In this document: positions 16,901-24,859 of the stretch, one piece after another
Layout of the letters: each line of letters begins with the position of its first letter
Position numbering within the stretch: position 1 is the stretch's first letter
Origin: a virus
Direction: 5' to 3' (one strand)
IMG/VR virus record: IMGVR_UViG_3300042346_000247
Coordinates: 1-26,130 of that record
DNA length: 26,130 nt
Notes under the pieces: generated by a model
Database searches by the model: none
Told to the model about the DNA's origin: nothing
Seen by the model: the letters and a program-made list of their open reading frames with translations, nothing else
Made by a program: the position numbers and the translations under genes

Positions 16901-18286
16901 ATGCCATTTACCTACACAGGCACGGACGGACTCTTCCCGCGACTCGGTGCGCTTGTCTACATGATGGATCAAGTTCGAGCGCATCAGAACAATCTGAAGA
17001 CGCTTCTTGCGAACGTGCAACTTGAGTACTCATCGACCGATGCTTGGATGATCGACGTTCTCTCCGGCAATATCGAAGCGCGAATCGCGGAAGCGGGAAA
17101 CGTACTGAACGACGTTCGCGCGGCGGCAGAGCGAACGATTCTTGAGATGTGCTTCGATGAGGCGACGGCAGTAGGTGCAACGAACACAATGGTTCGAAAG
17201 GACATCCGAGACGCTCTGATCTGGCTGATTCGTCAGATGGATGTCGACATTCAATCAATCGACGGAACGACGATCACGAAGTCGAGTCTGTCCGTTGGCG
17301 GATCGAACAACGGCAACGGCAAGTTCTACTATTTATTCGAGGCTCCGAACATTCTGCTCGGCTCGACTGCCGACTGGCCGAACATTCGCACGGAAGTTCT
17401 TGAAGCGCGATGCATTCAAGACGCAACGTCCGGCGCGATCTCGCGAGGATCTGAGATCTTCGAAATTCGCGGTCAGCCTTCGTATCAAGGCCTTGACTAC
17501 CGATTCCCCGGTGGAAGCGGAACGCTCATGCGTTTGACGACTGCTTGCGCAAGCGTCGACAACGGCATTCCTGGACAGAACATCCTCCACAATTCCGACT
17601 TTGAGGATCAGACCTCGAATCTTTCTGATCGCTTCACGGTCGTAAGCGGAGCGGCAGGCACGGAATTTCTGACGGAGACGACGGCGGCGAATGTCTTCCG
17701 AGGATCAAGCGCGATCAAACTCGCGGTGACGGGATCGACTTTCAATATCCGCCAGAGGCTCGCAGACTTCGACGGAACTCTCGGAAGGCTCACGCCGGAT
17801 CGACCGTACATCCTCGCCGTCGCGATCAAGAAGGACACGACGGCAACCGGAACGCTTCGTCTCTCGGTGAAGGACGCTTCTGGAAATATCATCGACGGCG
17901 GAAGTTTCTTGTTCTCACAATCAATCGCCTCGACAACGACTTCGTTTGCGATTTATGCAACTCAGTTGCGCTCTCCGCGCATCGTGCCAAGCGAGTTGTA
18001 CTTTCACATCGAGACGACAGCGGCGATCGCGACGGATGCTGTCTACATCGACGAGATCGTTCTCGCGGAGATGATGCCGATCGCGAATGGTGGGCCTTCG
18101 CTTGCGATCGTTGCAGGCTCGACGAACTGGAGCGCGGACGACAACGCTCGATACACATTCACGAACAACGGCGAAGGCGCGTTTGCTACGGCGTTCGATC
18201 GCTTGTTCGATATGTACGGGAAGGGCCTCAGCCTTCCTGCGAACTATCTCGGCACCGAGACGATCTCTGATTCTCTGATCGCCTGA
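16901..18286 (+). CDS. Large tail appendage protein with CBM-like beta-sandwich
   Basis: 461 aa; ATG after GAAGGAGAAATAGC. Residues 1-130 are largely helical (FPRLGALVYMMDQVRAHQNNLKTLL; VLNDVRAAAERTILEMCFDEATA), perhaps a trimeric stalk. A middle beta region follows, then from about residue 225 a carbohydrate-binding-module-like sandwich starting NILHNSDFEDQTSNL, with RGSSAIKLAVTGSTFNIRQRL and PYILAVAIKKDTTATGTLRLSVKD. The C-terminus is a separate small domain (NWSADDNARYTFTNNGEG...). Probably host-surface binding. It is the last gene of the structural run. Confidence 0.72.
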   Translation: MPFTYTGTDGLFPRLGALVYMMDQVRAHQNNLKTLLANVQLEYSSTDAWMIDVLSGNIEARIAEAGNVLNDVRAAAERTILEMCFDEATAVGATNTMVRKDIRDALIWLIRQMDVDIQSIDGTTITKSSLSVGGSNNGNGKFYYLFEAPNILLGSTADWPNIRTEVLEARCIQDATSGAISRGSEIFEIRGQPSYQGLDYRFPGGSGTLMRLTTACASVDNGIPGQNILHNSDFEDQTSNLSDRFTVVSGAAGTEFLTETTAANVFRGSSAIKLAVTGSTFNIRQRLADFDGTLGRLTPDRPYILAVAIKKDTTATGTLRLSVKDASGNIIDGGSFLFSQSIASTTTSFAIYATQLRSPRIVPSELYFHIETTAAIATDAVYIDEIVLAEMMPIANGGPSLAIVAGSTNWSADDNARYTFTNNGEGAFATAFDRLFDMYGKGLSLPANYLGTETISDSLIA

Positions 18287-18542
18287 TGAGATCTCCGAGG
18301 ATCGCTGCTCTCGCTTGCGCGACAAGGAAGCGGAGATCGTCTTCCTCGGCGAGATCGACGGCGAGCGTGTAGAGATCGAGCGATTCCCAAGTCGGAGAGA
18401 GAATCGAGCGGCATCGGAGTGCAGCGCGATCGGAGTTGCCTCGCGTGACCGCGAAGGAAAGCACAGTCTCGACGTGTGCTTGGACGCGACGAGATTCGAG
18501 TTTGTGCAGGCCTCTCGGATTTTTTCTCGACATCTCCTTCAT
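18228..18542 (-). CDS. Possible leftward ORF facing the control region
   Basis: 104 aa from the ATG at 18542 (or 101 aa from 18533, next to AAGGAG). Its codons (many CTC, GTC, GAT, GCG) resemble those of the phage genes, and a segment LDLYTLAVDLAEEDDLRFLVAQARAAILGDL looks like a real helix-rich protein. It would be divergent from the RecT-like gene with the triple half-site between them, a classical layout for a phage regulator. Against it: it overlaps the end of the upstream gene, no HTH is obvious, and the opposite strand also has an open frame (18315-18602). Low confidence. Confidence 0.3.
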   Translation of the reverse strand: MKEMSRKNPRGLHKLESRRVQAHVETVLSFAVTRGNSDRAALRCRSILSPTWESLDLYTLAVDLAEEDDLRFLVAQARAAILGDLIRRSENQRSSRCRDSSQEG

Positions 18543-18556
18543 TCTTCCGATATAGT
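18527..18556 (+). promoter_or_regulatory. Putative sigma70-like promoter for the recombination genes
   Basis: TCGACA (18527-18532) and TATAGT (18551-18556) with an 18-nt spacer. The -10 box touches the first half-site of the repeat array, so a bound protein would block RNA polymerase. Transcription would begin near 18563. Confidence 0.5.
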
Positions 18557-18581
18557 GTCCGCAAGCGGACACGGTGTCCGC
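18555..18581. promoter_or_regulatory. Triple half-site operator array
   Basis: GTGTCCGC (18555-18562), its complement GCGGACAC (18565-18572) and GTGTCCGC again (18574-18581). The first two make an 18-bp palindrome with AA between; the second and third make a 17-bp palindrome with one G between. The array overlaps the -10 and likely start site, the expected position for a repressor. In RNA, the second and third copies can fold as a 5'-end hairpin. Confidence 0.75.
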
Positions 18582-18598
18582 AGAAACAGGAGACACAA

Positions 18599-19483
18599 AT
18601 GACAGCAATGATCGTATCGGAGGCCGCGAAGTCGGCCAGTTCTCAACTCGCCATTGCCGGAACAAAGGCTCTCGAAGCCTACATCGCCGCAGGCGATATC
18701 GGCAAACTCGGGCCGGAGCAGCGCATCGCGCTCTATCGGGCCGTATGCGATTCGATGGGGTTGAATCCCCTCACGCAACCGTTTCAGTATCTCACGCTCT
18801 CGGGGAAGACGGTTCTGTACGCGACGAAGAGTTGCACCGAGCAGTTGCGCTCGATTCACGGAGTTTCGGTCGTTCGTATGGAACGCGAGATCATCGGCGA
18901 CATCCTGACCGTCACGGTCGCCGTGACCGAGCGGACGGGCCGCGAGGACATCTCGACTGGCTCGGTCAGCCTCGCCGGATTGAAAGGCGAGAACTTGAGC
19001 AATGCTCACATGAAGGCCGAGACGAAGGCAAAGAGACGCGCGACCTTAAGCATCTGCGGCCTTGCCGTCCTCGATGAATCCGAGGTCGACTCGATCGCAG
19101 GAGCGCAGGCCGTTCCAGTCGAGCAGTTCCACGCCGAGCCAAAGAAGGCATCGAAGCCAACCAAAGAGGAACGGCGGCGCGATCTCGACGAACTCACGAA
19201 TCCGACTCCGATCGCGAATCGAGTCGCCGAGCCAGAGACGGTCGCGGAGGACTGCATCACGATCCTTGCACGATCGCCGATCGGCGTAGTCGAAGGCAAG
19301 TCGGGCCGCCGCGTCTGGCGCATCGACCAAGAAGATCAACCGCTCCCGATCGCCGTTCTCTCCGAGGAGATCGCCTCGGGACTGGAAGCGAATCAGGCGT
19401 TCAGCGTCAATACGCGCGTCCGCGTCAAGCCTCGCGCGAATGGTGGATTCGAGGTCGTCGAGATCATCGGAGACGCTCCATGA
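18599..19483 (+). CDS. RecT/Red-beta-like single-strand annealing protein (putative)
   Basis: 294 aa; ATG after ACAGGAGACACAA. The region LYRAVCDSMGLNPLTQPFQYLTLSGKTVLYATKSCTEQLRSIHG resembles the Red-beta/RecT pattern with GLNPLT, and AHMKAETKAKRRATLSICGLAVLDESEV the later conserved helix. These proteins anneal complementary single strands in phage recombination and replication. The region about 195-235 is a charged linker (KKASKPTKEERRRDLDEL), followed by a beta-rich C-terminal domain (ITILARSPIGVVEGKSGRRVWRI ... VNTRVRVKPRANGGFEVVEIIG) that may be an OB-like fold. RusA at the window end fits a recombination set. The family call rests on pattern memory. Confidence 0.6.
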   Translation: MTAMIVSEAAKSASSQLAIAGTKALEAYIAAGDIGKLGPEQRIALYRAVCDSMGLNPLTQPFQYLTLSGKTVLYATKSCTEQLRSIHGVSVVRMEREIIGDILTVTVAVTERTGREDISTGSVSLAGLKGENLSNAHMKAETKAKRRATLSICGLAVLDESEVDSIAGAQAVPVEQFHAEPKKASKPTKEERRRDLDELTNPTPIANRVAEPETVAEDCITILARSPIGVVEGKSGRRVWRIDQEDQPLPIAVLSEEIASGLEANQAFSVNTRVRVKPRANGGFEVVEIIGDAP

Positions 19484-19839
19484 GTGGCGAGATCGTCGGC
19501 TCGGCAAGCCTTCGATCGCAGATCGGGATCGCGGCGGAAGATCCGAAGATCTTTCGTCCGATCTCGGTCGCGGAGGCTCTCGAAGTTGCGCGAATCATCA
19601 AGGCTGATACTTCGATTGACGAGGACATCCGCGAGGTCGTCGAGGTCGGAATCCCGCTTGATCTGATGCCTGCACATCTCACGCCAAGGAAGGAACTTCT
19701 CGCCGAGGCTCTTCGCGTCTCGGTGCGAACGATCCGCCGGAGAGAACTCGCTTGGGAACTCTGCGACCAGAGAGTTCGATTTGATCTTGTGCATCGAGCG
19801 AGTCGGCTTGTCTTCGCGAATCGCGGATCGCGTCTCTGA
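19480..19839 (+). CDS. Small HTH-like protein
   Basis: 119 aa, ATGA-coupled to the RecT-like gene. Not recognised by family. The C-terminal half has a helix-turn-helix-like stretch, KELLAEALRVSVRTIRRRELAWELC, so DNA binding is possible. The N-terminal half contains IFRPISVAEALEVARIIKADTSIDEDI. It is the last gene before an intrinsic terminator. It could be a regulator acting on the upstream repeat array, which is speculation. Confidence 0.65.
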   Translation: MSGEIVGSASLRSQIGIAAEDPKIFRPISVAEALEVARIIKADTSIDEDIREVVEVGIPLDLMPAHLTPRKELLAEALRVSVRTIRRRELAWELCDQRVRFDLVHRASRLVFANRGSRL

Positions 19840-19850
19840 ATCACTCGTCG

Positions 19851-19883
19851 AGCCTGCCGTGAGAAGTTCGCGGCAGGCTTTTT
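19851..19883 (+). terminator. Rho-independent terminator
   Basis: AGCCTGCCG (19851-19859) pairs perfectly with CGGCAGGCT (19871-19879) around an 11-nt loop and runs into TTTTT (19879-19883). It begins 12 nt after the stop of the HTH-like gene. This is the clearest intrinsic terminator in the window. Confidence 0.9.
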
Positions 19884-19915
19884 CACAATCTTCGGAAATG
19901 TGAAAGTTTCCCCCC

Positions 19916-19946
19916 TTTACAAATCGAAATCCCTCCCCCCTAATAC
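19916..19946 (+). promoter_or_regulatory. Possible promoter in C-tract region
   Basis: TTTACA (19916-19921) and TAATAC (19941-19946) with a 19-nt spacer, longer than ideal. They lie in a distinctive leader with runs of six C (C6 and C5 tracts, about 19910-19952) followed by a T/C-rich stretch (about 19970-19992). It would serve the gene at 20075. Confidence 0.35.
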
Positions 19947-20043
19947 CCCCCTCCCGACTACTTGAATCAAACTTCTTCTCTCTCTTCTTTCTTGGAACCG
20001 GAAGTGAAGAACGTCAAACGTAGTTATGGAGAGGGCCGCGAAA

Positions 20044-20061
20044 CTCTGGCAGGAGCCAGAG
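20044..20061 (+). promoter_or_regulatory. ANGGA-family leader hairpin 1 (loop AGGA)
   Basis: CTCTGGC (20044-20050) pairs with GCCAGAG (20055-20061) around loop AGGA, a one-base-shorter version of the A(N)GGA loop seen in the four downstream leaders. It ends 13 nt before the ATG at 20075. The ribosome site there is only a weak purine tract (about 20061-20069). Confidence 0.6.
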
Positions 20062-20074
20062 AAAGAGAGACACA

Positions 20075-20692
20075 ATGCAATCGAAGACGAACGGCATGAC
20101 GCGCGAGGAACTTGCCGGATTTACTGCGCGAGCGAATCGGTACTTCAAAGGCGAAACCGATCGCGAGTTGTGGTCACTCGCGCTTCCGCGAATCGCCGAG
20201 GAATCCGCCGAGGTCGCGATGGCCGCGCTTGAGAACTACTCGATTCAATGGGGAGGGCCGCGAGCGCGTTTCCTCCCTGCAAAATATTTCGAGTTCCTCG
20301 CCGATGTGAAAGTGCGCCGTCTCGAACTTACGCAGCGCGAGGCTCGCGAGCGCGAGGCTCGGATGCGCTCGATCGCATCGAGTCGAGACGCGGCAGTCTG
20401 CGAGGCCGACTGGCTCTCACGTCGTCGCGAGATCGAGACTGCGAATCCGCTCGAAGTCGGAGAAGCGGTCGACTACCTTCGATCGCTCGGGTGGGGCAAT
20501 CCGCCGGAAGCCTTTGGCGCATGGTCGCGGCCTTGGATTCTGGCCGTCTCGGATCTCGTCTGCCGGAGAACGCTCGCCGGTTACGATCGCGATCGGCAGG
20601 CATTCGAGGATCGCGACCGGAATCCGCTCCGGCCAGTCTCGGCGGCGACGTTCTACCGCGAGGCCGGAAAGGCCGCAGGAAGGCTCACCTAG
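20075..20692 (+). CDS. Hypothetical protein, possible replication/helicase-loader type
   Basis: 205 aa. An in-frame second ATG at 20096 is also possible. The N-terminal half (REELAGFTARANRYFKGETDRELWSLALPRIAEESAEVAMAALENYSIQWGGPRARFLPAKYFEFL) resembles the small helical N-terminal domains of phage replisome organisers or helicase loaders, where a patch ending in F-P-A/S precedes the linker. A basic helical segment (about 85-110) and a C-terminal domain with VDYLRSLGWGNPPEAFGAWSRPW follow. This is a weak resemblance; function stays open. It sits between two control regions and is transcribed alone. Confidence 0.7.
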   Translation: MQSKTNGMTREELAGFTARANRYFKGETDRELWSLALPRIAEESAEVAMAALENYSIQWGGPRARFLPAKYFEFLADVKVRRLELTQREAREREARMRSIASSRDAAVCEADWLSRRREIETANPLEVGEAVDYLRSLGWGNPPEAFGAWSRPWILAVSDLVCRRTLAGYDRDRQAFEDRDRNPLRPVSAATFYREAGKAAGRLT

Positions 20693-20707
20693 GCGTTTGG
20701 CCCGTTT

Positions 20708-20750
20708 GGAGGCCTGCCAAGGCCTTCCGCGCTTCAAGGCCTGTACAGGC
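20708..20750. repeat. Inverted repeats after the 20075 gene
   Basis: GGAGGCC (20708-20714) pairs with GGCCTTCC (20721-20728) with one bulged base around a 6-nt loop, and a perfect 12-bp palindrome GCCTGTACAGGC lies at 20739-20750. Only TGTTT follows, so this is at best a weak terminator. The two share AGGCCT words, so one may derive from the other. Confidence 0.45.
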
Positions 20751-20788
20751 TGTTTCCCGCGATTTGAATATACAATGTCCAAATAACA

Positions 20789-20824
20789 AGAATCTTCAGA
20801 AGATTTCGAGAATCTCTGAAGCAT
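20789..20824. promoter_or_regulatory. Pair of 16-bp direct repeats, operator candidate
   Basis: AGAATCTTCAGAAGAT (20789-20804) and AGAATCTCTGAAGCAT (20809-20824) are offset by 20 bp, close to two helical turns. The first also contains a 7-1-7 palindrome (AATCTTC-A-GAAGATT). They lie 25-60 bp upstream of the TATACT box at 20850, a natural place for an activator or repressor. Confidence 0.55.
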
Positions 20825-20849
20825 TTCCTACTTTGAGCCGAAATATGTG

Positions 20850-20855
20850 TATACT
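20850..20855 (+). promoter_or_regulatory. Putative -10 box for the small-gene cluster
   Basis: TATACT in an AT-rich stretch (AAATATGTGTATACTG). No good -35 at 17 nt, consistent with an activator-dependent promoter using the repeats upstream. Transcription would start near 20862, placing leader hairpin 2 at the extreme 5' end of the mRNA. Confidence 0.45.
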
Positions 20856-20863
20856 GATCACAT

Positions 20864-20880
20864 CAAGGCAAGGAGCCTTG
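20864..20880 (+). promoter_or_regulatory. ANGGA-family leader hairpin 2 (loop AAGGA)
   Basis: CAAGGC (20864-20869) pairs with GCCTTG (20875-20880) around loop AAGGA. Five nt later comes AAGGAG (20886-20891), then ATG at 20898. Confidence 0.75.
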
Positions 20881-20897
20881 GAACAAAGGAGACAGCC

Positions 20898-21080
20898 ATG
20901 AAGAATCAAACCGGCCTTTCAGTCATCGAAAAAGCACAGCAAATGTTTGAGCAGTACGGCATGGAAGAAGCCATCGGAATTGCGAACTCATTCGCAAGCA
21001 ACTCAAAGATTCACAGCGAGCGATTCTTTTACTGGATGGTCGTGAAGGCACTCAAGGAAGTCAAAGCAGACATGGAATGA
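20898..21080 (+). CDS. 60-aa protein with own leader hairpin
   Basis: Starts MKNQTGLSVIEKAQQM, with ideal AAGGAG spacing; a longer reading from 20847 would pass through the hairpin. Fully helical in appearance (EQYGMEEAIGIANSFA; FFYWMVVKALKEVKADME) with no Cys or membrane segment. Unknown function. First of four small genes that, unlike the rest of the window, are not coupled by overlaps but each carry a separate hairpin and a strong ribosome site. Confidence 0.75.
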   Translation: MKNQTGLSVIEKAQQMFEQYGMEEAIGIANSFASNSKIHSERFFYWMVVKALKEVKADME

Positions 21081-21093
21081 GGCACGGAGCCTC
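21079..21093 (+). promoter_or_regulatory. ANGGA-family leader hairpin 3 (loop ACGGA)
   Basis: GAGGC (21079-21083) pairs with GCCTC (21089-21093) around loop ACGGA. The stem begins inside the TGA stop of the upstream gene. AAGGAG follows at 21101-21106 and the ATG at 21114. Confidence 0.75.
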
Positions 21094-21113
21094 GAACACA
21101 AAGGAGACAGCAA

Positions 21114-21410
21114 ATGAAGGTCACGCAAAGACAACTCGAACTCATCCTCGCTCGCGACCGCGCTCTCAAGCAAGTCGCAAACTCTGGAGCGCACTCGATG
21201 CTCCTTCGCGAAGAACTTCGAGAAACTATTGATGCAGGCAATCAAGCAGAATACTGCGCTCAGATTCGTCACCTGCAATGGGACTTGAAGTGGCAAAAAG
21301 AAACGACCGACGAAGGTCGCGCTCGCATCGAAGCAGAAGCGGAAGAGGATGGATCGACTCTCGTCGACTACAACGGATGGACGCGCAATCTTCGCGCTCA
21401 AAGCAAGTGA
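21114..21410 (+). CDS. 98-aa helical hypothetical protein
   Basis: Starts MKVTQRQLELILARDRALKQV after CAAAGGAGACAGCAA. Mostly charged helices (LLREELRETIDAGNQAEYCAQIRHLQWDLKWQKE; EGRARIEAEAEEDG), then DYNGWTRNL near the C-terminus, which echoes the YNGW motif of the protein at 22063. No family recognised. Likely an early, host-interaction or regulatory small protein, based only on size and position. Confidence 0.7.
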   Translation: MKVTQRQLELILARDRALKQVANSGAHSMLLREELRETIDAGNQAEYCAQIRHLQWDLKWQKETTDEGRARIEAEAEEDGSTLVDYNGWTRNLRAQSK

Positions 21411-21417
21411 ACGACTC

Positions 21418-21432
21418 GCGGCATGGAGCCGC
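21418..21432 (+). promoter_or_regulatory. ANGGA-family leader hairpin 4 (loop ATGGA)
   Basis: GCGGC (21418-21422) pairs with GCCGC (21428-21432) around loop ATGGA. AAGGAG starts only 2 nt later (21435-21440), with the ATG at 21447. Confidence 0.75.
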
Positions 21433-21446
21433 AGAAGGAGACAGTC

Positions 21447-21716
21447 ATGCTTGTCACATTCGTCCCACGCAAGTCAAACATCAACTATATCGAAGCCGAT
21501 CTCTTCAAGGCGATCTCCGCTCTCGAAGGTATCGAGGAGTTTGCATCAGATACTCGGATCAGGATTCGCGAGAAACTCGACGAGGCCACTCGTCGCGGAC
21601 TTCGCACGACGATGCGATGGCAAGCATCGAACGTAGACGGACATCACTACTCGATCATCACCTACGCGATCGACCCTGATCTTGGATCGCACATTGCGAC
21701 AGTCTTGATTCGCTAA
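21447..21716 (+). CDS. 89-aa hypothetical protein
   Basis: Starts MLVTFVPRKSNINYIEADLF; the ATG at 21423 lies in the hairpin loop and is not a likely start. Alpha/beta sequence: a helix ISALEGIEEFASDTRIRIREKLDEATRRGL, then strands TTMRWQASN and HHYSIITYAI. No family recognised. Stop TAA is followed by a strong UUCG hairpin. Confidence 0.7.
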   Translation: MLVTFVPRKSNINYIEADLFKAISALEGIEEFASDTRIRIREKLDEATRRGLRTTMRWQASNVDGHHYSIITYAIDPDLGSHIATVLIR

Positions 21717-21728
21717 CGACTCGGATCG

Positions 21729-21752
21729 GAGGAGCCTCTTCGGAGGCTCCTC
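21729..21752 (+). promoter_or_regulatory. 10-bp stem-loop with UUCG tetraloop
   Basis: GAGGAGCCTC (21729-21738) pairs perfectly with GAGGCTCCTC (21743-21752) around TTCG closed by C-G, the extra-stable cUUCGg tetraloop. No T-tract follows. It may be a transcription pause, an mRNA 3'-end stabiliser or a processing site. Confidence 0.75.
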
Positions 21753-21774
21753 GAATCTGCGCCGTAGGCCAGAG

Positions 21775-21791
21775 CCTCGCACGGAGCGAGG
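21775..21791 (+). promoter_or_regulatory. ANGGA-family leader hairpin 5 (loop ACGGA)
   Basis: CCTCGC (21775-21780) pairs with GCGAGG (21786-21791) around loop ACGGA. Here even the inner GGC/GCC of the other hairpins is replaced by CGC/GCG with pairing kept. AAGGAG lies at 21799-21804 and the ATG at 21812. Confidence 0.75.
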
Positions 21792-21811
21792 AGCAGACAA
21801 GGAGACACATC

Positions 21812-22066
21812 ATGCAAGACGAAACCGACATCAAGGAACTCTCAGACCTCGAACTCGATCTCGCGATCTCCGCGATAAACGAACTCATCCGCGAGCCGTT
21901 CCATTGCATTCACGGCGAGTATCCGATGCTCGATCGCGCCTGTTCGGGATCATGGATTCAAGAACTTGAGCAGACTGGCTCGATCGAGATTCCGGCGCAC
22001 TACTCGCGAACCAAGCGTCCAGAGCAGATCAAGCGCGAATCGCTCAAGATCGGAGGCTCGCAGTGA
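21812..22066 (+). CDS. 84-aa hypothetical protein
   Basis: Starts MQDETDIKELSDLELDLAISAINELI. Acidic helical N-terminus, then HCIHGEYPMLDRACSGSWIQELEQTGSIEIPAHYS, and a basic C-terminus with KRPEQIKRESLKIGG. The pattern resembles small phage proteins that adopt a conserved short fold, but no family is assigned. Last gene with an ANGGA hairpin leader; its stop overlaps the next gene by GTGA. Confidence 0.7.
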   Translation: MQDETDIKELSDLELDLAISAINELIREPFHCIHGEYPMLDRACSGSWIQELEQTGSIEIPAHYSRTKRPEQIKRESLKIGGSQ

Positions 22067-22380
22067 CTACATACAACACCTACAACGGATGGCAGAATCG
22101 AGCCACATGGAACGTCGCGCTCTGGCTCGACAACGAATTTCCTAACTTGATTCAAGACGCAATTAAAGATCGGTACGTCAAGGAGCCAAAGCACCTGCGA
22201 TCACGTCTTGAGAGTGAAATCGAGGAACTCGATCTGCACTCATGGTGCTTGAAGACTCCGAACGGTCGATCCGTCGCACACTTCCTCACGCCAGATGCAG
22301 AACGATTCGACGATGCAGACTGGGAGGAGTTGTTCGAAGTTCTGATCGAGACACCACGAAAGGAGCGCGAAGAGCAATGA
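22063..22380 (+). CDS. YNGW-motif phage protein (DUF7249-like)
   Basis: 105 aa with GTG start in a GTGA overlap; GGAGG about 8 nt upstream supports it. The N-terminus TYNTYNGWQNRATWNVALWLDNE is the signature of a widespread small phage family (YNGWxNxxTWNVALW). The rest is helical and charged, with LDLHSWCLKTPNG in the middle. Biochemical role unknown. Coupled to the next gene by ATGA. Confidence 0.7.
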   Translation: MTTYNTYNGWQNRATWNVALWLDNEFPNLIQDAIKDRYVKEPKHLRSRLESEIEELDLHSWCLKTPNGRSVAHFLTPDAERFDDADWEELFEVLIETPRKEREEQ

Positions 22381-22649
22381 TCTATCAACTCAAACAGGCC
22401 ATCGGATCGACTTGGGAAGACGTGCAGAATCTCGACTGGGACGGTTGGTATCCGCTCCTCGAAGTGCGCCGTGCCGAACTCCTCGTCGTCGGATTGATCG
22501 AGGCCGATCGCGAGGATCTCTCCGATCTCGTTCCGATCGCATATCGAAACGGCGAAGCCTGCGCTTGCCTCGCAGGCGATCAAGATGGATTCATGCTCGC
22601 GAGCGAGTATCGGAAGTTCTTCGATCAGCAGACTGGAGGCGAGCAATGA
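22377..22649 (+). CDS. 90-aa hypothetical protein
   Basis: Starts MIYQLKQAIGSTWEDVQNLDWDGWYPLLE in an ATGA overlap, with AAGGAGCG upstream. Alpha/beta: a strand-like RAELLVVGLIEADREDL, then VPIAYRNGEACACLAGDQDGFMLASEYRKFFDQQ. No family recognised. Its stop overlaps the start of the small membrane protein. Confidence 0.65.
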   Translation: MIYQLKQAIGSTWEDVQNLDWDGWYPLLEVRRAELLVVGLIEADREDLSDLVPIAYRNGEACACLAGDQDGFMLASEYRKFFDQQTGGEQ

Positions 22650-22780
22650 AAGATCTTCTCGTCTGTATCGCCTTCCTTTGGTACGTCGCGATCCTCGTCG
22701 GCATCGTGATGATCGAATGGAGACTCTCGCGAATCACACGCTTCCTCGATCGCGAGGAGAAGAAGCGAGGCTCGAAATGA
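22646..22780 (+). CDS. 44-aa single-pass membrane protein, holin candidate
   Basis: A gene of only 45 codons, starting MKDLLVCIAFLWYV. One hydrophobic segment (about residues 4-24: LLVCIAFLWYVAILVGIVMIEW) is followed by a basic tail (RLSRITRFLDREEKKRGSK), the topology of an N-out/C-in small membrane protein. Coupled by ATGA on both sides; the next gene encodes an exported lysozyme-like enzyme. It could be a holin, pinholin or other lysis helper, but size and context are the only evidence. Confidence 0.65.
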   Translation: MKDLLVCIAFLWYVAILVGIVMIEWRLSRITRFLDREEKKRGSK

Positions 22781-23178
22781 CTTCGATCATCATCTCGACT
22801 CTCCTCCTCATCGCTCCACCAAAAGGCACGGATACGCGAGCGATCCTCGATGCGATTCGCACCGTCGAGACTGGCGGCGAAACCGATCCAGATCGAGCGA
22901 TCGGAGACAAAGGCAAGGCTCTCGGCGCGTATCAAATCCATCGAGGCTACTGGCTCGATGCGACAGAGAAAGATCCTGCTCTCCGCGCTCTCGGATACGA
23001 AAGCGTCACGGATCGAGCGATCGCGGAGAAGGTCGTCATCGCGTACCTGACTCGATACGCGCCAGACTGGAAACTCGACACCGTCGCGCGGATTCACAAC
23101 GGTGGGCCTCGCGGTCACAAGAAAGACGGTACTCTGGACTACGCTCGCAGGGTGCGAGCAGCAATGGAGACACAATGA
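22777..23178 (+). CDS. Exported i-type-lysozyme/destabilase-like endolysin
   Basis: 133 aa. A short hydrophobic start (MTSIIISTLLLIAPPKG) looks like a signal or signal-arrest sequence. The body matches the invertebrate-type lysozyme pattern: catalytic-type Glu31 in IRTVETGG, Asp44 in IGDKGKALGAYQIHRGYWLDA, and VARIHNGGPRGHKKDGTLDYARRV. Expected to cleave peptidoglycan glycan chains. Animal family members are cysteine-rich; this one has no cysteine at all, as expected for a bacterial or phage version. Paired with a 44-aa membrane protein as a lysis cassette. Overlaps the next gene by 4 nt. Confidence 0.7.
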   Translation: MTSIIISTLLLIAPPKGTDTRAILDAIRTVETGGETDPDRAIGDKGKALGAYQIHRGYWLDATEKDPALRALGYESVTDRAIAEKVVIAYLTRYAPDWKLDTVARIHNGGPRGHKKDGTLDYARRVRAAMETQ

Positions 23179-23699
23179 ATCGAACCATCTATGACATCAG
23201 CGCGGATCTCGCCGCGCTCGAAGCGATCCTCCATGAGAACAGAGGCGACGTATCCGATCCGCAGGCAGAGGCCGCGCTCGCAGAATGGGAACGCGAACTC
23301 GAATCGGATCTCACGGGAAAGGTCGATCGATACTGCTCGCTCATCGCGGAACTCGAAGCGCGATCGGCAATGCGGCAGGCAGAGGCCGACCGTCTGGCGG
23401 ATCTTGCGAAGGCTGACGACAAGGCCGCGCAAGGCCTGCGCGAGCGTCTGCGATTCATTTGGGAAACGCGGAATCTCCCCAAGATCGAGACAGCGCGATT
23501 CCGAGTCGCACTCACGCGAAACGGCGGCAAGGCTCCGCTCGATCTCCGAGTCGGGCCGGAAGAGTTGCCAGAGTGGGCGATCGAACGAAAGACGATCGTC
23601 ACGGCAAACAAGGACGCGATTCGCGCTCGACTCGAAGCAGGCGAGAATCTTCTATTCGCGAATCTCATGGAACGAGGAACGAGGATCTCGATCAAATGA
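23175..23699 (+). CDS. Siphovirus Gp157-family protein
   Basis: 174 aa. Start in ATGA overlap, with ATGGAGACACA before it. The pattern YDISADLAALEAILHENRGDVSDPQAEAALAEWERELESDLTGKVDRYCSLIAELEARS, then a coiled coil to about 105, then KIETARFRVALTRNGGKAPLDL is that of the Siphovirus Gp157 family (Pfam PF05565). Family members were first linked to phage resistance in lactic streptococci and are often beside recombination genes; the molecular function is unsettled. Helix-rich N-terminus, beta-rich C-terminus. Confidence 0.85.
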   Translation: MNRTIYDISADLAALEAILHENRGDVSDPQAEAALAEWERELESDLTGKVDRYCSLIAELEARSAMRQAEADRLADLAKADDKAAQGLRERLRFIWETRNLPKIETARFRVALTRNGGKAPLDLRVGPEELPEWAIERKTIVTANKDAIRARLEAGENLLFANLMERGTRISIK

Positions 23700-23917
23700 A
23701 CCGACCGTATCTCTCGAAGCGAGCGCGACAAGGCCTCGAATCTCTCCTCTCGCGCTCGATCGCGACGACCGAAGAGGATCTCGTCGCAATGCAATGGATT
23801 CGCGGAATGCTCGATCGTGCTGCTATCATCGCCAGTCCGAAAGCGCAGGACGCGCCGTCTCCTCGGATGGGAGGGAGCAGCAATGCTCCCTCCCAAGGAG
23901 AGGAGGCAACGGTATGA
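23696..23917 (+). CDS. 73-aa hypothetical protein
   Basis: Starts MNRPYLSKRARQGLESLLSRSIATTEEDL, ATGA-coupled. Helical N-terminal 45 residues, then a Ser/Pro/Gly-rich tail (about 50-73) whose composition is forced by the strong hairpin embedded at 23868-23895. Nothing recognised. Confidence 0.6.
   Translation: MNRPYLSKRARQGLESLLSRSIATTEEDLVAMQWIRGMLDRAAIIASPKAQDAPSPRMGGSSNAPSQGEEATV
23868..23895 (+). promoter_or_regulatory. 12-bp stem-loop with GCAA tetraloop inside a coding end
   Basis: 23868-23879 pairs without mismatch with 23884-23895 around GCAA (GNRA type). The hairpin lies in the last codons of the 73-aa gene and directly borders the AAGGAGAGGAGG ribosome site (23895-23906) of the gene at 23914, so it probably affects that start. 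Confidence 0.75.
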
Positions 23918-24117
23918 AACAACCGATCGACAAGCCTGCGAATTTCGGTCGCGTCATCCGGCAGGCCTACGAAGGCGACCGGATCTGGCTCATCGCCGAG
24001 AACGGCGATGATCTCGGATTCCTCGAAATGAAGCGCGTACCAAAGGACGCGAAGATCACCGTCGCATTGTGCTTCGATCGCACGATTCGCATCGAGCGCA
24101 GAGAAGAGGAGCGATGA
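23914..24117 (+). CDS. 67-aa hypothetical protein
   Basis: ATG within the previous TGA; strong GGAGAGGAGG upstream. Sequence MKQPIDKPANFGRVIRQAYEGDRIWLIAENGDDLGFLEMKR, then DAKITVALCFDRTIRIERREEER, appears as a small beta sheet followed by a charged tail. The C-terminal third recalls CsrA by eye but the match is too weak to use. Function unknown. Confidence 0.65.
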   Translation: MKQPIDKPANFGRVIRQAYEGDRIWLIAENGDDLGFLEMKRVPKDAKITVALCFDRTIRIERREEER

Positions 24118-24467
24118 AGCACGATCCGATGATGCGAGCCGGAAACGCTCCGCCGCCTGCCGACTCTCTCTTCTCTCTCGGGATGCACAGAACCAACGAT
24201 CGCGAGACATCGATCGAGGCCGCGAAGCGAGCAGCACCGCGAGCAGGAAGCGGTCGCGCTCTCGCGCTCGAAGCATTGCGAAACAATCCAGAAGGCCTCA
24301 CGGATGAGGAACTCGCGATCGTAACCAAGCAATACATGAACTCGATCGGCAAACGCCGAACGGAACTCACGCAGGCCGGATTCATCGAGGACAGCGGCAT
24401 TCGGCGGATGTCGTCGAGAGGCTCGATGATGATCGTTTGGAGAATCAAGAAGGAGGCGACGACATGA
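24114..24467 (+). CDS. Winged-helix (HTH) phage protein
   Basis: 117 aa, ATGA-coupled. After a flexible start it has HRTNDRETSIEAAKRAAPRAGSGRALALEALRNNPEGLTDEELAIVT, then NSIGKRRTELTQAGFIEDSGIRRMSSRG and VWRIKK. This is a recurrent phage winged-helix type in which a helix-turn-helix is followed by a beta wing. It may bind DNA at a replication or control site. Exact role unknown. Confidence 0.75.
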   Translation: MKHDPMMRAGNAPPPADSLFSLGMHRTNDRETSIEAAKRAAPRAGSGRALALEALRNNPEGLTDEELAIVTKQYMNSIGKRRTELTQAGFIEDSGIRRMSSRGSMMIVWRIKKEATT

Positions 24468-24859
24468 AGGAATTCGAGCGCATCGAAAAGCGGTTCAAGG
24501 AACTTCGAAACTGGCTTCTCGAACTTCAATCGGAAGATACTCACGCTGATCGAGACGACGAGCACGACTCGCACAATCTCGGCCTCATCAATCTGCATGA
24601 GATCAAACTCGCATTCTTCGCTCTGGCGCAGGAAAGAGATCGACTGCGCTTGAAACTGGAAATGTGGCAGGACGGGAACATCATGTCCGAGCAGCATCAT
24701 GAGGAGATCAATCGCCTACGCGCCGAGCGAGACGAGGCGCGGCGGGAGGTGTCGTTCCTCCGACCAAGCGTTTGTCTTGGATCGCAGACCGCACACGAAT
24801 ACGCAGATGCTCGCGGCTGGGACTGCTTCAAGGAGGACGGCAAATGTTCTCATGGATGA
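24464..24859 (+). CDS. Coiled-coil hypothetical protein
   Basis: 131 aa, ATGA-coupled. Helical and highly charged: KEFERIEKRFKELRNWLLEL, KLAFFALAQERDRLRLKLEMW, and EEINRLRAERDEARREVSFLR. The C-terminal 35 residues carry two cysteines (CLGSQT, WDCFKEDGKCSHG gives three in all) and a region with HEYADARGWDCF. The last pattern resembles the ends of other small phage proteins that may bind metal. No family assigned. Confidence 0.65.
   Translation: MKEFERIEKRFKELRNWLLELQSEDTHADRDDEHDSHNLGLINLHEIKLAFFALAQERDRLRLKLEMWQDGNIMSEQHHEEINRLRAERDEARREVSFLRPSVCLGSQTAHEYADARGWDCFKEDGKCSHG

Follow-up and report, generated by a model that had tools for sequence, protein, structure and literature searches.

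Sequence elements associated with gene starts have been known in phages since 2011, and to our knowledge no mechanism has been assigned to them. In phage T4, RegB and RegA control early genes post-transcriptionally, and lambda-type phages carry boxB, a stem of about 5 bp with a pentaloop, in their leaders. Here, we analyzed leader hairpins in a 26,130-nt stretch of phage DNA (one strand, positions 1 to 26,130 of IMG/VR virus record IMGVR_UViG_3300042346_000247; hereafter, the window), where a hairpin with a conserved loop and a downstream GAGAC element form a bipartite module in front of seven genes.

The closest known elements are the start-associated sequences (SAS) and extended SAS (ESAS) of cluster K mycobacteriophages, with similar repeats in Microbacterium phages, whose function is unknown (PMC3203893, PMC7302621). 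A SAS-like GGGAAAGGACCCC occurs in Microbacterium cluster EF (PMC7302621), and ESAS contain putative SigA promoters (PMC11373665). Like the module described here, SAS and ESAS are present in multiple copies in the non-structural half of the genome, in one orientation, at the starts of genes from different families that are uncoupled from the upstream gene; the starts are mainly ATG, the elements are partly promoter linked, and a G-rich core lies between short complementary arms. SAS, however, have a fixed 13-bp sequence, GGGATAGGAGCCC, that is located 3 to 7 bp before the start and contains the Shine-Dalgarno (SD) sequence, whereas in the module the stem is free and covarying, the hairpin precedes the SD (ending 12 to 20 nt before the start), and loop and GAGAC are conserved.

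The T4 RegB/RegA system resembles the module in that numerous early leaders carry one common post-transcriptional signal at the ribosome site, but hairpin and motif differ. BoxB shares the stem of about 5 bp, the pentaloop, and the position in phage leaders; unlike the module, it belongs to nut sites together with boxA, does not stand at each start, and has another loop sequence. A nut- or boxB-like role was set aside because the element stands at each start. Targets of CsrA/RsmE have the form A(N)GGAX with an essential GGA (PMC4005645), and csrA genes are known in phages (PMC7366521). CsrA, RsmA, and RsmE targets share with the module an apical A-N-G-G-A, a mostly C-G-closed stem, and a second site at the SD (PMC4005645). 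The module differs in that GGA is not required, the 4- to 5-nt loops mostly lack the X base, and GAGAC is the second element.

Seven leader hairpins and their relatives

The window encodes a tailed phage with genes for a large terminase, a portal protein, and Mu-F-like and HK97-type capsid proteins; non-structural genes follow on the plus strand from about 18.6 kb, 3' of the structural genes. A reading of the letters alone (here, the sequence-only reading) had described five hairpins with A(N)GGA loops in this part. All five were recovered with the same coordinates, stems, and loops, and the window has no other perfect A(N)GGA hairpin whose stem measures at least 4 bp (five on the plus strand, none on the minus strand). 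The family is thus real, but its size had been underestimated: a covariance model identified seven members with 26.9 to 37.2 bits, the next match having 13.2 bits. The two additional hairpins, at 18565-18581 and 23143-23159, had been overlooked, as they have T at the fifth loop position.

Relatives were recruited with the protein encoded at 18593-19480, which yielded 13 closely related phage contigs and 13 more distant ones, a set that was later enlarged. All of them are metagenomic fragments, counts over loci take in some overlapping contigs, and most scans demanded perfect stems, so that members with mismatches are undercounted. The same module was found in about 27 related phage contigs, and nearly all contigs spanning the region carry such leaders. 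Across 34 related loci, A(N)GGA hairpins (stems of at least 5 bp) were strongly biased to the coding strand (85 versus 5 on the other strand), while hairpins with other loops were balanced in the same loci (1950 versus 2031). Of 203 A(N)GGA words located 17 to 34 nt 5' of an SD and start, 45 were flanked by a stem of at least 5 bp; when the right flanks were re-dealt in 2000 trials, the mean was 2.06 and the maximum 9. The covariance model, whose E-values are rough, gave 110 matches in 30 clade loci, 100% of them on the coding strand, versus 1 match in 53 outgroup loci (0.8 Mb) sharing only the 18593-type protein. Several matches lay outside the training set, including L142:3419, L185:8873, L186:8873 and 12333, L188:8870, L143:8878, and L133:11613. 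Outgroup phages with related 18593-type proteins were without the module.

Analysis of 37 pentaloop hairpins revealed two-sided changes in all six pairs and a covariation score of 0.865, compared to 0.199 ± 0.031 after shuffling; these rows were chosen as perfect hairpins and so overstate the paired fraction, and leaders picked by orthology are the unbiased evidence. Leaders of gene 20075 selected by orthology alone (31 to 97% protein identity) nearly all contained the hairpin with changed stems, and their loops AGGA, AGGAC, AGGAT, ATGAA, ATGAT, ATGAC, and ATGGA sit on unrelated stems. For gene 18599, the leader loop is ACGGT, ATGGT, or ACGGC in the lineage of the window and ACGGA or ACGAA in relatives. 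The proposal of an RNA-level signal is therefore borne out by a conserved loop, covarying stems, the tie to translation starts, and the presence across related phages. A DNA operator was rejected, since loop and orientation stay constant as stem sequences vary.

A scan that made no assumption on the loop showed that 77 of 116 leader hairpins fit A-N-G-R-H (pentaloop) or A-N-G-A (tetraloop), and loop positions A1 and G3 were invariant in 37 of 37 distinct pentaloops. The loop A(N)GGA of the sequence-only reading is accordingly correct for the five hairpins it cited and too narrow for the relatives; the C-G closing pair is frequent (31 of 37 pentaloop hairpins) but not universal. These loops also bear on the suggestion that the hairpin acts as a ribosome standby site or second SD, with AGGAG in the loop capturing the 30S subunit near the start. 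Many loops do read GGAG together with the closing G, and several leaders have a weak downstream SD; the loops ACGAA, ATGAA, AAGAT, and ACGGT, however, keep the hairpin and lose complementarity to the anti-SD, and pairing of a 4- to 5-nt loop on a 5- to 7-bp stem with the anti-SD appears sterically doubtful. The standby role, already only an alternative when first raised, is thereby weakened, and we regard it as improbable.

The downstream GAGAC element

The hairpin ends 12 to 20 nt before the start codon and is followed by a second conserved element. This had been taken for AAGGAG, but the conserved element is GAGAC, which is also present behind the hairpin at 20044-20061 (AGAGAGACA). At the ribosome-binding site, GAGAC was present in 47 of 52 hairpin leaders, compared to 32 of 395 other starts with an SD. 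GGAG showed no such enrichment (34 of 52 versus 232 of 395). A search of window positions 18000 to 24500 against Rfam gave no covariance-model match at an E-value of ≤1. As judged by sequence comparison, hairpin and GAGAC constitute a new RNA family, a bipartite RNA module absent from Rfam.

That the module is cut by a phage endoribonuclease like RegB of T4, which would cleave GGAG-like sites in early leaders and thereby shut them off, is very improbable. By analogy to T4, the placement at non-structural starts and the purine motif in loop and SD would fit; the loop core, however, is not GGAG, and RegB had no match in 14 fragmentary relatives, a weak negative, as the positive control gave no match either. 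RegA likewise had no match in 14 fragmentary relatives, with the same weakness of the positive control.

The element also speaks to control by CsrA or RsmA, from host or phage, in which a dimer would bridge the loop GGA and the SD GGA and block translation. The C-G-closed ANGGA stem with an SD GGA does resemble the targets of these proteins cited above, and csrA genes do occur in phages. Among 49 distinct leaders (1 or 2 of which, e.g., L134:14169, may be chance hairpins), however, 20 carry no GGA in the loop, 15 carry none in the downstream segment, and in four (L133:11307, L142:5698, L142:5917, and L138:10462) it is missing from both while stem pairing persists. In addition, the X base that completes the A-N-G-G-A-X hexaloop of high-affinity sites is missing from most loops. 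Since a CsrA operator should not tolerate loss of GGA with pairing kept, this reading is unsupported.

Promoter-like boxes and position of the hairpin

In 54 non-redundant leaders, TATAAT-like hexamers (5 or 6 matches) ending 6 to 12 nt 5' of the hairpin were observed in 13 instances, and none were found at other distances up to 37 nt. Some of these boxes have a -35-like partner at 17 to 18 nt (TCGACA, TAGACA, or CTGACA). By sequence, hairpins behind such a box are predicted to start at or near +1. These promoter readings are sigma70-like consensus matches alone. Searches of named phages and plasmids with the capsid and lysozyme proteins gave no host pointer, and a scan of genome contigs gave a single weak match in an uncultured Firmicutes bin. 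Many other hairpins start within 18 nt of the preceding gene's stop codon, e.g., those at 21079 and 21418.

The hairpin could be a passive mRNA stabilizer and start-site insulator. Located at +1, or freed by processing between cistrons, it would protect the mRNA 5' end against degradation and hold the ribosome site accessible, with no dedicated regulator. In line with this, the 13 strong -10-like boxes place the hairpin at the predicted +1, and the isolated window hairpins are predicted to be stable (-7.0 to -11.3 kcal/mol), with a stem probability of 0.99 to 1.00 in six of seven leaders; a competing fold is predicted for the leader of the hairpin at 18565. The invariant A1 and G3 and a separate GAGAC would be superfluous in a passive role, however, and many members lie behind a stop codon without a -10 box. 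We consider this explanation rather unlikely.

A possible common operator

Fixed loop letters, a free stem, and a second motif at the ribosome site are the expected look of a bipartite operator that is read by a protein. We therefore tentatively propose, with somewhat less than even confidence, that the leaders are a shared post-transcriptional operator read by a trans-acting, possibly phage-encoded factor. The module consists of a hairpin of 5 to 7 bp with free stem sequence and an A-N-G-R-H (or A-N-G-A) loop at the 5' end of non-structural cistrons, and of a putatively single-stranded GAGAC a few nucleotides 3' of it, at the ribosome-binding site immediately 5' of the start codon. In this model, the factor, probably encoded by the phage, would bind loop and GAGAC jointly, and this recognition would switch translation or decay of the tagged messages as one set. 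Small genes behind the module swap between phages and the module remains, so that a newcomer gene would inherit the common control.

Several points weigh against a common operator. The loop consensus was derived from the same data that display it. Alignments of perfect hairpins inflate the paired percentage, for which the gene-based leaders are the unbiased check. A structural role without a protein, such as protection of the 5' end, also predicts a conserved stem. As GAGAC and the SD overlap, some of the constraint on GAGAC may reflect ribosome binding. Finally, the clade contigs are metagenome fragments known from sequence alone.

The compensatory changes make the RNA nature of the module readable, and its conserved letters (A1, G3, and GAGAC) are defined, which makes it directly amenable to bait or reporter tests. 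The module illustrates a possible route by which phages could bring exchangeable small accessory genes under joint control.

A candidate reader protein

As a candidate reader of the module, we identified a 67-amino-acid (aa), all-beta protein encoded at 23914-24117 on the plus strand and conserved in the clade. It was found in the clade loci spanning this part of the genome but in none of the outgroup loci, a co-occurrence that common descent alone could explain. The protein was picked up via sub-threshold CsrA matches of 66-aa proteins in two relatives, which lend CsrA some support. These matches to PF02599 were restricted to the two relatives (E-values of about 0.001), the best reaching 19.5 bits against a cut-off of 27 bits, and the 67-aa protein of the window itself gave no match to this family. 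No CsrA above the Pfam cut-off was found in the window or in 26 fragmentary relatives.

In hhalign comparisons, the profile of the 67-aa protein matched CsrA with a P value of 0.036 and an MlaD decoy with 0.026. Among the CsrA and decoy sequences used, those of Escherichia coli and Pseudomonas aeruginosa CsrA agree with Protein Data Bank (PDB) chains across the aligned portion. Two AlphaFold models (pLDDT of 72 and 78) showed five predicted strands as in CsrA, and a Foldseek search with both gave no match. Membership of the 67-aa protein in the CsrA family was rejected, the resemblance being marginal in the family, profile, and fold searches taken together; a match to MCE/MlaD was as weak as the one to CsrA. 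Recognition of the leaders by CsrA or RsmA, as suggested in the sequence-only reading, thus finds no backing in the GGA counts or in the proteins, and we assign it a low probability.

A bolder form of the common operator, which we consider rather unlikely, invokes an RNA-binding regulator of a new class. Encoded by the phage, and possibly identical to the protein encoded at 23914-24117, this regulator would read the A-N-G-R-H loop and GAGAC as the operator of an early regulon and so plug newly acquired accessory genes into a ready-made circuit.

A 12-bp inverted repeat at 23868-23895 (TGGGAGGGAGCA-GCAA-TGCTCCCTCCCA) lies directly 5' of the SD of the gene at 23914; at the equivalent position in L010, the stem sequence differs by paired changes, and most relatives have some hairpin there.

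The modules in the window and the genes behind them

All seven hairpins, with their GAGAC elements and promoter-like boxes, lie on the plus strand. The first (18565-18581, GCGGAC-ACGGT-GTCCGC, 32.7 bits) precedes a conserved gene starting at 18599, with GAGAC at 18590-18594. A -10-like box, TATAGT (18551-18556), is located 8 nt 5' of this hairpin and kept in relatives, and a -35-like TCGACA lies 18 nt 5' of the box. A palindrome, GTGTCCGCAAGCGGACAC (18555-18572), directly 3' of the -10 box, overlaps the hairpin; by its sequence, it is a possible repressor operator and alternative RNA fold. The second hairpin (20044-20061, CTCTGGC-AGGA-GCCAGAG, 37.2 bits) stands before gene 20075, with GAGAC at 20067-20071; orthologous leaders fold with differing stems.

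Hairpin 3 (20864-20880, CAAGGC-AAGGA-GCCTTG, 36.0 bits) lies 8 nt 3' of a -10-like TATACT (20850-20855) and precedes gene 20898, with GAGAC at 20889-20893. Hairpin 4 (21079-21093, GAGGC-ACGGA-GCCTC, 35.6 bits) overlaps the stop codon of the upstream gene and is followed by GAGAC at 21104-21108 and gene 21114, while hairpin 5 (21418-21432, GCGGC-ATGGA-GCCGC, 36.5 bits), directly 3' of the upstream stop, is followed by GAGAC at 21438-21442 and gene 21447. Each of these three small plus-strand genes (20898-21716; 60, 98, and 89 aa) is thus preceded by a separate module. Their orthologues were found in 1, 3, and 0 clade loci, respectively, and most relatives have other genes there. The core genes flanking 20898-21716 are about 95% identical in close relatives. 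The segment is a hypervariable small-gene site at which close relatives carry unrelated open reading frames.

Hairpin 6 (21775-21791, CCTCGC-ACGGA-GCGAGG, 26.9 bits) precedes gene 21812, with GAGAC at 21802-21806. Upstream of it, at 21729-21770, lies a strong GC hairpin (GAGGAGCCTC-TTCG-GAGGCTCCTC) with no T run, followed by GAATCTGCGCCGTAGGCC; this combination recurs 5' of intercistronic leaders in the relatives L001, L009, L134, L135, L138, and L139. Hairpin 7 (23143-23159, GCTCGC-AGGGT-GCGAGC, 33.5 bits) precedes a Gp157-family gene at 23175 (PF05565 match), with GAGAC at 23167-23171. Conserved genes with the module are those at 18599, 20075, and 23175.

Positions 22063-22380 encode a DUF7249 protein (PF23907, PHROG 871), and positions 22777-23178 encode a protein with a match to Destabilase (PF05497) lysozyme (E-value of 2e-7), for which no match was obtained among named phages or plasmids.

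A fixed-sequence hairpin in other phages

A broad pattern search of viral contigs brought up mostly an apparently separate set of phage contigs (L019 to L132, e.g., L022, L027, L050, and L112), whose hairpin we treated as a separate element. In about 60 copies, this hairpin of fixed sequence, CCGGCATGGAGCCGG, has a conserved GGGGTATTACGGGTGA or GGTATTTGTGTTCGGC on its 5' side and ATCAAGGAG plus a start on its 3' side. Near matches were found in the Pseudomonas phages phiAH14a and H66, and named matches were mostly Pseudomonas phages. Since Pseudomonas hosts have RsmA, a CsrA-type reading may fit this element.

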